From contig NZ_CP109479.1 in NCBI RefSeq assembly GCF_036227485.1, forward strand, positions 6,448,001-6,512,000: a DNA stretch of 64,000 bases, given 5' to 3'. Positions 16,296 through 24,376 of the stretch are shown here, in pieces. This DNA comes from Streptomyces sp. NBC_01451. Lineage in GTDB: Bacteria; Actinomycetota; Actinomycetes; Streptomycetales; Streptomycetaceae. Positions within the stretch are counted from its first letter, which is position 1. Each line of letters begins with the position of its first letter. A program made the position numbers and the translations under genes. Under the pieces are notes generated by a model that worked only from the letters and a program-made list of their open reading frames with translations, was not told the origin of the DNA and did no database searches.

Positions 16296-16334
16296 GGGCG
16301 GCCCCCGCGAGTCATGTCCTCGCGGGGGCCGCCC
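16296..16334. terminator. Hairpin terminator
   Basis: 15-bp perfect stem (16296-16310 with 16320-16334) with a 9-base loop, directly after the hypothetical gene and convergent with sodF. Confidence 0.7.
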
Positions 16335-16421
16335 GTCACTCCGCCTGCCGTCGCATCGGTGAGAAGACGATCACGAGGCAGGACGCTTCACGGCAGCCGG
16401 CACGGTCGGCGAAGACTGCCC

Positions 16422-21236: not shown

Positions 21237-22300
21237 CGCCGGTACTCCGCAGCCACGGACTTCGCCGCGATGCCCTCGAAGCGGTGGTCGAAGAGCGAGC
21301 TCACGTCGAACTTCTTCACGAAGCCGCCCTCCGCGAGCAGATCGGCGGTCTCCTGCTCCCACCTGATCGCCTCGGCCCAACTCGGCTGGAACAGCGGCTT
21401 GTTGGCGAGCCTGGTGATCGCCTGCGCCTGGGGGAGAGTCAGGTTCTGCGTCTTGACGTAGAACTCCTCGTTCCAGGTGTCGGGGTTCTCGTACGTCCAC
21501 ACCAGACCCTTGGCCCAGTACGGGATGTACGCGGCGATCGCGGCTGCCTTCGCGGAGTCGTTCAGCACGGAGACCGGCGCCCACAGCAGGTTGAGCAGGT
21601 CGACCACGTCCGTGTCGATGCTGCGGGCACCCTTGGCGGCGTACTGCTGGAGATACGCGGGCGCCTGACTGATGGCGAGCGGCGCGACGTCCACCTGGCC
21701 CGACTGAAGGGCGGTGAAGAACTGGTTGCTGGTCAGCGGGACGAGCTCGACCTCGTCGTACGCGAGCCCGGCCTTCTGGAGCGCCCGCAGGAGTACGACG
21801 CCCTGGGCCTGCCCCTGTGAGAAGGCGAGTTTCCTGCCCTTGAAGTCCGCGACCGACCGGATGTCGCTGCCGGGCTTGGTGGCGAAGAGATAGTTCGGCC
21901 TGCGGGTGACGTTGATCGCGACGATCTTCGCGTCGAAGCCCTGGAAATGCGCCTGGATCGGCGGAATTCCCGCATTGTTGGCCAGGTCGAGGGAGCCCGA
22001 GCGGAAGGCGTTGATGACATCGGGGCCGGCGGATATGTTCTCCCAGCTCGACACCTTGAAGGGCAGCTCGCCCAACTTTGCGAATTTGAACTGGAGTTGC
22101 TGGGTGCCCGAATAGGAGGAGATCTTCAGGCTCGTACCGGCCGGGACCCTGTCGGCGAGCGGGGCGGTCGAGGCGCCCTTCGATTCAGCGGCGGCACTGC
22201 TGTTCGCGCAGCCGCTCAACCCGGCGACACCGGCCGCGGCGCCTAGCAGGGAGGTGAGGAAGAGCCGTCGGTCGACACCCGGCAGGGGAGATGAAGGCAT
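21233..22300 (-). CDS. ssuA: Sulfonate ABC transporter substrate-binding lipoprotein
   Basis: 355 residues from the ATG at 22300 (GGAG seven bases upstream). The start carries a twin-arginine-like signal (DRRLFLTSLLGAAAG) and a lipobox LSGC, so the mature protein is a lipid-anchored receptor. The body (GTSLKISSYSGTQQLQFKFA, AFRSGSLDLANNAGIPP, VALSQAPAY-like part) fits the NMT1/SsuA fold that captures aliphatic sulfonates. First structural gene of the leftward operon, 181 bases after a Cys-rich leader ORF. Confidence 0.88.
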   Translation of the reverse strand: MPSSPLPGVDRRLFLTSLLGAAAGVAGLSGCANSSAAAESKGASTAPLADRVPAGTSLKISSYSGTQQLQFKFAKLGELPFKVSSWENISAGPDVINAFRSGSLDLANNAGIPPIQAHFQGFDAKIVAINVTRRPNYLFATKPGSDIRSVADFKGRKLAFSQGQAQGVVLLRALQKAGLAYDEVELVPLTSNQFFTALQSGQVDVAPLAISQAPAYLQQYAAKGARSIDTDVVDLLNLLWAPVSVLNDSAKAAAIAAYIPYWAKGLVWTYENPDTWNEEFYVKTQNLTLPQAQAITRLANKPLFQPSWAEAIRWEQETADLLAEGGFVKKFDVSSLFDHRFEGIAAKSVAAEYRR

Positions 22301-22449
22301 GGGAGGACTCCGTGAGTTGGGAAGGCAGGACCGCATGCGGAATTCGAGGCACGAGGAGGCCCGGAAACCGGGATTCACGCAGGGGGGAGCAGTGGGCGCG
22401 GAAAGCACAGAGAGTGCGGAATGCGCGGAGAGAAATGAGCGCTTCACAC

Positions 22450-22489
22450 GTGGCAACGTGTCAGCAACAGTGGCGACGTGTCAGCAACA
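22450..22489. repeat. 20-bp tandem duplication at the end of the leader ORF
   Basis: 22450-22469 and 22470-22489 are adjacent 20-bp copies differing at one base. On the minus strand each copy begins TGTTGCTGA (Cys-Cys-stop). Because 20 is not a multiple of three, the two Cys-Cys-stop strings are in different frames. The copy nearer the leader ends that ORF. Confidence 0.85.
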
Positions 22490-22540
22490 GAGGGTGCGAC
22501 AGCTCACGAAAGGGCTCATGAGCAGGATGTTCCCGGCCAT
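22481..22540 (-). CDS. Putative cysteine-rich leader peptide of the sulfonate operon
   Basis: 19 residues, MAGNILLMSPFVSCRTLCC, from an ATG with AGGGAC seven bases upstream; three of its last six residues are Cys, at a CRTLCC end. It lies between the ROK regulator stop and ssuA. Short Cys-ended ORFs upstream of sulfur-assimilation genes are known in actinobacteria, where ribosome stalling at Cys codons reports cysteine supply. I infer the same here; there is no direct proof of translation. Confidence 0.5.
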   Translation of the reverse strand: MAGNILLMSPFVSCRTLCC

Positions 22541-22573
22541 GCCTGGTCCCTGTCAATATTCGGAGTTTCTGAA

Positions 22574-23812
22574 TTAAATAGCCTGAGGTGAGGCGGCCAG
22601 CGGATCCCGGTACAGCACATCGAGCGCCACCGAACCGCCCGCCACCGCGAGAACCGAATCCGGGAAACTCGTCGGCACGACAGAGGCCGCACGTTCGGCG
22701 CCGACCCCTTCGCGCAGCGCCGCGAGGCAGTCCTCCCGGTGGATGACGCCGACCTCGGTCACGACCACCGTCTCCGGATTCAGCACGTCGAGCAGCAGGC
22801 GCGTGGCCCGCCCCACGGCACTCGCCCGCCGCACCAGCAGCCCCACGGCAGCCTGGTCGCCCCCGGCCGCCGCCGCGACCACCCGGAGGGAATCCGTGGT
22901 CTCGACGACGCCCGCTTCCCGCGCCCTCCTGCACAGCGTCCGTTCGCTCAACTCGGCCTGAAGGCAGCCCGTACGCCCGCAGTCGCAGGCCTCCGTGCCG
23001 CCCGGCACCGGCAGATGGGCGATGGCGCCGGCCTGGGAGCGCGGCCCGTGGTGCACCTCGTCGTTGGTCGCGAACGCCGCGTCGACGACGTTGCCGACGA
23101 ACAGATGCAGCACACTCCCGCTGCCCCGCGCGGGCCCGAACAGCCGCTCCGCGTTGACCAACGCCCGTGCGTGGCCGTCCACATGGACCGGCAGCCCGGT
23201 ACGGGCGCGGAGCACGTCCCGCACCGGCACGTCCCGCCAGCCCAGCATCGGGTGCTCGACGACGGTCCCGGACTCCCGGTCCACCCAGCCGCCGACGGCC
23301 ACGCCGACACCGAGCGCCCGGCGGCCGGGGGATCCCTCCAGCAGCGCCCCCAGCCCTTCGGCGGCCCGCGCCAGCACCCACCCCGGGTCGGTGTGCTCGT
23401 GCGCCAGCTCACGCCGGGACACCACCCGGCCGCGCAGATCCAGCAGCGCGACCGTCGTGAACGACACGGCCACATGCACGCCGGCGACCACGAACCGCGA
23501 GGAGTCCAGGTCGACGGGCACATGCGGACGTCCCACGCCGTTCGACCGCCGGGGCGCGGACTCCTCGCGGATCAGGCCGAGTTCGGCGAACCGGGCGCAG
23601 TAGTCCGTCACCGACGCCGGTGACAGCCCGGTCAGCCGGGCGATGGTGCTGCGCGCCACGGGCCCGTGCTCCAGCACGGACCGCAGGACGACACTCGCGC
23701 TCGTCCTGCGCCGGTCGGAATCGGCGGCACGGGGCACGCGGGACGCGGCGGGGCGAGAAGGGGAGGTACGGGAGAAGGGGGAGGCAAGGGTGGGTGCCGC
23801 GGCACGGGGCAT
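22574..23812 (-). CDS. ROK-family transcriptional regulator
   Basis: 412 residues from the ATG at 23812, which has GAGG nine bases upstream; the ATG at 23821 abuts that site. An N-terminal winged helix (LEHGPVARSTIARLTGLSPA) binds DNA, and the rest is the ROK sugar-kinase-like fold with the zinc motif CDCGRTGCLQAE. The ATP/sugar site looks partly degenerate. It is transcribed in the same direction as the sulfonate genes, so it could regulate them, but ROK proteins usually sense sugars. The link is only positional. Confidence 0.85.
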   Translation of the reverse strand: MPRAAAPTLASPFSRTSPSRPAASRVPRAADSDRRRTSASVVLRSVLEHGPVARSTIARLTGLSPASVTDYCARFAELGLIREESAPRRSNGVGRPHVPVDLDSSRFVVAGVHVAVSFTTVALLDLRGRVVSRRELAHEHTDPGWVLARAAEGLGALLEGSPGRRALGVGVAVGGWVDRESGTVVEHPMLGWRDVPVRDVLRARTGLPVHVDGHARALVNAERLFGPARGSGSVLHLFVGNVVDAAFATNDEVHHGPRSQAGAIAHLPVPGGTEACDCGRTGCLQAELSERTLCRRAREAGVVETTDSLRVVAAAAGGDQAAVGLLVRRASAVGRATRLLLDVLNPETVVVTEVGVIHREDCLAALREGVGAERAASVVPTSFPDSVLAVAGGSVALDVLYRDPLAASPQAI

Positions 23813-24376
23813 GGCGATCATCCTCGGGGAACTGGTCCGACACTGCGCCGTCTCATGAGGACTCGGGGGCCGGTGGAGGCTCGGGGAGTCCTGTGGAGCG
23901 AGGCGCGCCGGAGCCGCCTCACCCGGGGCGGCGACAGGTGGCCGTGCCCACGCGTCGCAGGTCGACATAGCGACGCGACGAGAAGTACCGGGACTGGGCG
24001 ACCATGCGCTCGAAGCTAGCAAAACGGGCCGACCCTGCACAGACGGCGACCGACGGGCGAGACGGCACGCGTCCGCGCCGACGTCGGGCCGGGGCCGAGC
24101 CGGAGCGGGGCCCCCTCCGGAACGGGGCCGGGGGGCGCGCAGGCCTACGCGCGGCATTGGCGGAACCCTACAGAACGCGCCCGCCGCGCCTCCGTAGCCC
24201 ACACCACCCCACCTCAGTGACCGGCGTCACGCCGTACCGGGTGTAACCCCCACCTTTTGTCCGGAGCCCACCAAGCCGTCGCCGTCCCCTTTGTCGAGCG
24301 CCTACGGTGATCGGTCCGAGGGTGCCGGGATAGCGTCACAAGGTCCCCTGCCGCCCACCGTCCCAGCGGAGTCCCC
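23813..24376. other. 564-bp intergenic region between divergent ROK and bioY genes
   Basis: It holds the promoters of both genes. I see no tRNA, no convincing ORF (the short frames have Arg/Pro-rich shadow composition) and no strong hairpin. A relatively AT-richer patch just before bioY (about 24250-24310) is the likeliest bioY promoter area; no biotin-repressor-type operator was recognised. Confidence 0.5.

Follow-up and report, generated by a model that had tools for sequence, protein, structure and literature searches.

The window analysed here is a 64,000-nucleotide stretch of the genome of Streptomyces sp. NBC_01451. Its minus strand encodes an ssu-like operon, in the order ROK regulator, ssuA, ABC ATPase, monooxygenase and TauD-type dioxygenase. 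The monooxygenase is of the FMN-dependent NtaA/DmoA type, and a permease between ssuA and the ATPase was recognised by eye only, the Pfam scan of that stretch giving nothing. Located between the ROK gene and ssuA are a cysteine-rich ORF and a 20-bp tandem repeat (Table 1). A previous, sequence-only reading of this region had described a 19-codon ORF ending CRTLCC-stop, with its last codons in the repeat, and had proposed a cysteine-responsive attenuator that was duplicated and possibly rearranged. The Cys-rich frame ending CRTLCC-TGA at 22481 (minus strand) is indeed present, and so is the tandem unit, whose copies are identical at 19 of 20 positions and each open with TGT TGC TGA. An Rfam search of the window gave three matches, one sRNA and two tRNAs, none of them at the leader; a sodF sRNA match (77 bits) lies at 16296–16386 on the minus strand. 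No match was obtained in a plasmid search.

Table 1. Features of the ssuA leader region and the adjoining genes (positions in the window)
Feature	Position	Strand	Basis and remarks
ssuA-like sulfonate-binding protein, 355 aa	21236..22300	-	NCBIfam SsuA_fam, 104.5 bits (below the cut-off of 163.5); Pfam NMT1
Predicted hairpin GCT.ACACGT-TGCC-ACGTGT..AGC (tentative)	22441..22465	-	Single-sequence fold
Repeat copy 2, TGTTGCTGACACGTTGCCAC	22450..22469	-	Sequence, single fold; the predicted hairpin downstream has its 5' strand here
Repeat copy 1, TGTTGCTGACACGTCGCCAC	22470..22489	-	Sequence; contains the leader's Cys-Cys-stop
Short leader ORF of 12 codons (MSPFVSCRTLCC) and a TGA stop, probably leaderless	22481..22519	-	Sequence, codon conservation
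-10 box GAACAT	22527..22532	-	18-nt spacer; 7 nt to ATG
-35 box TTGACA	22551..22556	-	Present in 42 of 43 core-bearing loci (absent from L027); 30–31 nt from ATG
Conserved palindromic block TATTTAATTCAGAAACTCCGAAT	22558..22580	-	Alignment of 113 distinct rows; abuts the -35 box
ROK family regulator	22574..23812	-	Pfam ROK, 7.8e-31; ATG 23812 taken as its start, GAGG lying 9 nt before it
Second leader ORF MVAQSRYFSSRRYVDLRRVGTATCRRPG plus stop, canonical-type Cys, upstream of ROK, probably leaderless	23919..24005	-	-10 box TAGCTT at 24018–24013, 7 nt to ATG

The ATG at 22519 is located 7 nt past the -10 box and 31 nt past TTGACA, and at this spacing the mRNA probably begins at the ATG. The leader mRNA is thus probably leaderless, with its transcription start at or next to ATG 22519. 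The -10 box has A as its second base and T as its last base each in 55 of 59 distinct short leaders (8–15 codons). It was not called by a generic sigma-70 scan, which found no sigma-70 consensus promoter in the window.

Promoter and start codon were compared among relatives through a core sequence, CTGTCGCACCCTCTGTTGCTGACACG, a locus being counted when at least 20 of 26 positions matched. This core is present in 43 of 47 close ssuA orthologue loci (73–100% identity), and the nearest in-frame ATG of these 43 follows TTGACA at 31 nt in 38 and at 30 nt in two; in L030 and L034 the in-frame ATG at 31 nt lies upstream of the nearest one. Leader and promoter were found in 45 of the 47 loci (42 short and three long forms). 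L027 has kept the ORF, lacks the -35 box and has a leader ending CR; L022, with a core score of 18, holds only a degenerate relic; and L050, L052 and L053 score 14–15 yet possess the long form. In a count that was not selected on the ORF, TTGACA occurs in 101 of 108 distinct core sequences. In all 101 the ATG is in frame with Cys-Cys-stop despite differing leader lengths, its distance from TTGACA being 31 nt in 94 and 30 nt in 7, and since both spacing and frame are kept, ATG 22519 is taken as the conserved start. The remaining seven are without TTGACA within 80 nt, and five of them are long leaders.

The start of the 19-codon ORF proposed previously, ATG 22540–22538, falls in the promoter spacer between the -35 and -10 boxes and is therefore probably not transcribed, nor was any convincing ribosome site found for it. 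The longer ORF was rejected on this ground. Its start is partly conserved. Across 74 distinct 12-codon relatives (window included) the codon at 22540 is ATG in 46, GTG in 8, TTG in 1 and a non-start in 19, and it is ATG in 48 of the 101 core sequences that have a -35 box. An upstream in-frame start is thus present in 55 of the 74 twelve-codon rows, so that conservation alone leaves the longer ORF possible.

Among the 59 short leaders, codon -3 (TGT), the Arg codon (CGC) and the stop (TGA) are each invariant. Codon -7 is TGT in 57, TGC in one and TTT in one (Cys in 58), and codon -2 is TGC in 55, TGT in two and CGC in two (Cys in 57), while the residue at codon -4 varies (L, H, F, S). Conserved Cys codons thus cluster at the end of the ORF, as in the leaderless polyCys attenuators of the mycobacterial type. 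The comparison of ssuA upstream regions across Streptomyces, suggested along with the earlier proposal, accordingly found Cys codons and ORF conserved in many.

A covariance model built from 39 relatives, with the window excluded, matched positions 22556–22427 at a score of 106 bits (E 1.6e-29 for a search of the window). When run over the whole genome the same model had this as its sole match at E ≤ 1e-3 (E 2.5e-27). Conservation of the leader exceeds chance. In a search that was not selected by ssuA, the model matched 83 of 295 genomes of the genus at E ≤ 1e-3, the other 212 giving no match. Seven of the 83 matches were rejected as chance, namely six that are near-identical to one another and without ssuA in the fetched stretch, plus that in G296. 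We opened 66 of the remaining 76, and 65 of these precede ssuA, 46 of them being already known through ssuA. The exception is G093 (L103), where a leader, MSPLTSCRTLCC, stands directly before tauD; ssuA was not found there, and ROK only as a 65-aa stretch of 58% identity. In this locus the leader has thus been retained although a different gene now follows it. Taking all 154 locus rows together, which are not all distinct and many of which were found through ssuA, ssuA lies at most 900 nt behind the leader in 149 and tauD follows in one, while four end too early to tell. The leader is thus found upstream of a gene of sulfur metabolism. In an order-wide draw the model matched 59 of 197 genomes at E ≤ 1e-5, all within one of six genera. 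By motif, no leader was found in about 900 nt upstream of 18 ssuA paralogue loci (53–58% identity), the motif matches in two of them (L112 and L115) being judged chance by eye.

Our search of an open-licence library found no paper on the Streptomyces ssuA leader. The part of the Streptomyces lividans reannotation drawn on here gives eight leader peptides, none of them for cysteine (PMC8079986).

With the same promoter and spacing, the leaders of relatives range from 8 to 52 codons. The longer forms include MSSSRVQVPLTKCRVVDLMRVARTLCC (followed by its stop), a 35-codon form (L212) and forms of 50–52 codons; most end RIGRTLCC-stop, and one long leader ends CH. A LTKCRVVDLMRV-type motif is found in frame in longer versions. 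The previously suggested likeness to Streptomyces sulfur-gene leaders holds in substance through this motif and through the leader on the ROK side; it does not hold through the string LLLTRRH, to which it had been attributed. Leaders of 27, 27 and 35 aa scored 14.6, 20.9 and 20.4 bits against NF042933 (leader_Ms5788A), with E-values of 0.019, 2.1e-4 and 3e-4. These longer homologues thus resemble the family weakly, at scores far under its cut-off of 45 bits. A 51-codon leader gave no NCBIfam match, and the 12-aa peptide of the window lies under the 20-aa minimum of the profile scan and hence outside NF042933 scoring. Two of three Micromonosporaceae relatives of ssuA (about 50% identity) have leaders as well, MYRSQRLIRRRFLDFQRVCSCTC and MHRSQRLIQRRFVDYQRVCSSAC, each followed by a stop, with 25.3 and 24.3 bits against NF042936 (cut-off 45). 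In SsuA trees most long leaders are nested among short ones. At least three switches to or from the long form are needed in one tree, from which 8 of 59 named loci were omitted and to which 7 earlier loci were added, and two in another. The leader region may have recombined.

Leaderless polycysteine short ORFs of mycobacteria were reportedly described by Canestrari et al. in 2020. The ssuA leader shares several traits with them as they are presented in parts of three sources: it is probably leaderless, its Cys codons cluster near the end, and it is the first ORF before a sulfur operon (PMC9031893, PMC9094748, PMC4633059). It differs in being shorter (8–15 codons for the short forms, against 21–27 positions in the NCBIfam models) and in ending mostly in Cys-Cys-stop. 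The short leader also lacks the longer motif, and its cysteine response is putative. Judged from their sequences, the short leaders resemble a pared-down member of this known leader group, and the ssuA leader is probably one of the known leaderless Cys-leader attenuators in reduced form.

The genome of the strain itself encodes nine further leaders over the cut-off of NF042934, cis_reg_atten (L160–L168). According to Pfam, the genes behind them encode ThiS and PALP, luciferase-like monooxygenase (two), cysteine dioxygenase, sulfite/nitrite reductase, transport permease, GST C-terminal domain, rhodanese and flavin reductase, which mostly fits sulfur metabolism. Among 14 control genomes, matches to NF042934 occurred in 10 at E ≤ 10 and matches to NF042933 in six, none of them over the cut-offs. 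The ssuA leader of the window differs from NF042934 in lacking, by eye, an HVDL-type motif. It is linked to this family by the over-cut-off leaders before sulfur-related genes in the same genome and by the near-threshold leader before ROK.

The ORF is, in our view, likely to be a leaderless gene for a Cys-rich leader peptide by which the ssu operon is attenuated in response to cysteine. This is the best-supported reading, since the alignments show that the ORF is conserved with its frame, Cys codons and stop, and that the spacing of its promoter and its location ahead of ssuA are conserved too; to this extent the earlier proposal of an attenuator stands. We infer that transcription would begin at or next to ATG 22519, with ribosomes loading on the 5' end. 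With ample Cys-tRNA, MSPFVSCRTLCC would be read fast and the ribosomes would leave, and the downstream RNA would fold in a way that leaves ssuA poorly expressed. When Cys-tRNA is short, ribosomes would stall on Cys-Cys before the stop, the RNA would fold otherwise and ssuA would be expressed. Such control could act either on transcription termination or at the ribosome site of ssuA. According to the part of a review drawn on here, M. smegmatis has leaderless contiguous-Cys sORFs that could control downstream translation by attenuation (PMC9031893). The idea that a stalled ribosome changes the downstream fold is an analogy with this mycobacterial system, which the same part describes as translation control. 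This would mean, if true, that about 8 codons can suffice for an amino-acid attenuator, which is under the 20-aa minimum of the profile scans used.

The RNA fold itself received no covariation support from comparison. Shuffles matched the pairing observed in relatives, being as high in 122 of 500 cases for cells paired and in 410 of 500 for the covariation score, and RNAalifold found two-sided change in none of 11 pairs. Helix P1, within the ORF, says nothing, since five of its six pairs never vary; P2 and P3 showed no covariation above shuffles. Folding z-scores were weak, with means of -0.95 over the ORF plus 75 nt, -0.35 over stop +3 to +45 and -0.90 over stop +45 to +110. A simple scan of window positions 22200–22700 found no intrinsic terminator such as a trp-type transcription attenuator would have between leader and gene.

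The 20-bp duplication is common to six loci (the window, L180, L181, L182, L184 and L198), and these cluster together on the SsuA tree at a modest support of 87/73. It is a lineage-specific modification. Single folds of several single-copy relatives have one copy serving both as the end of the ORF and as the 5' strand of the hairpin. Fixed in one related group, the duplication may therefore set the Cys-Cys-stop, in copy 1, apart from the predicted hairpin that follows, whose 5' strand lies in copy 2, and so separate stall site and hairpin. A different duplication, of 13 bp, is present at the same place in L023 and L088, and L039 and L043 have other short repeats after the stop.

The conserved block might instead be a binding site in DNA or RNA, either an operator or a structured RNA, to which the ORF is incidental. 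This would suit the Arg codon and the stop, both more constant than coding needs, and their invariance in all 59 leaders does make a constraint at the nucleotide level possible; another conserved DNA element, a palindrome, is also located on the same promoter. We nevertheless find it unlikely, because the ATG spacing is fixed and the frame kept in every core sequence with a -35 box whatever the leader length, because the residue at codon -4 changes while the Cys codons stay, and because the longer homologues resemble leader peptides. That the peptide is a functional small protein, binding metal or thiols for example, appears very unlikely. Short homologues do keep two or three Cys, whereas their length goes down to 8 codons in 10 of the 59 and their N-termini are variable, and the near-constant position within 900 nt of ssuA suits a cis element.

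The sequence-only reading had also seen a second Cys-Cys-stop in another frame, preceded by LLLTRRH, and from it a duplicated and rearranged attenuator. The string LLLTRRHCC-stop is real and the duplication behind it is kept in six loci, but its frame has no likely start. Moreover, LLLTR occurs out of frame in single-copy relatives too, as the conserved letters CTCTGTTGCTGACACG are read that way, and among the listed relatives a second TGTTGCTGA right after the first is found only where the 20 bp are doubled. The LLLTRRH frame was rejected as a second leader and is an overlap artefact. A rearranged attenuator with this second frame is thus hardly credible, and of that proposal only the duplication survives beside the attenuator formed by the conserved leader.

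Within the palindromic block, ATTCAGAAACTCSGAAT is nearly invariant among the 113 distinct rows. It occurs as one exact copy each in genomes G000, G056 and G155, none of which has a copy with one or two mismatches, and as one copy with two mismatches in G103. Among 160 ssuA loci, a few genomes contributing more than one, 148 gave a ROK match, and these have the site with at most two mismatches in 143 cases and with three in five. In six loci with more than 900 nt upstream and no ROK match (three Streptomyces and three Micromonosporaceae) the site is absent (6–8 mismatches); the other six of the 160 were left unclassed. This co-occurrence suggests that the palindrome is probably the operator of the adjacent ROK regulator. 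SsuR and CysR of Corynebacterium glutamicum are ROK-type sulfur regulators with the half-site TGAAtnnAAt near the -35, according to the part of the study drawn on here (PMC2580772). The two systems are alike in having a ROK protein tied to ssu genes and an inverted-repeat site near the -35, and the half-site of the window, ATTTAATTCA, fits the reverse of TGAAtnnAAt as given there. The window differs in that its site touches the -35, and binding to it is putative.

The second leader, upstream of the ROK gene, scored 23.7–25.3 bits against NF042934, just below the cut-off of 27. Homologues of it were found upstream in the loci of 39 of 40 relatives, and in the sole miss (L057) the stretch begins just 1168 bases before the ssuA leader. 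We give roughly even odds to a wider reading, in which two cysteine sensors are stacked in one operon: a canonical-type leader before ROK, and a stripped-down leader, of 8–12 codons in most of the species covered, before the transporter, at a promoter that would bear the ROK operator. The length variants (8 to 52 codons), together with the 20-bp duplication that would move the hairpin 20 nt past the stall site, would then form a natural mutagenesis series for a minimal Cys attenuator, making the minimal stall element directly testable. If true, a Streptomyces sulfur operon would be wired by a regulator protein as well as by ribosome-sensed cysteine, twice in the same operon. In L022 and L027 (genomes G013 and G125) ROK has been lost; a ROK-type leader now adjoins ssuA there, and of the short leader a relic is left.
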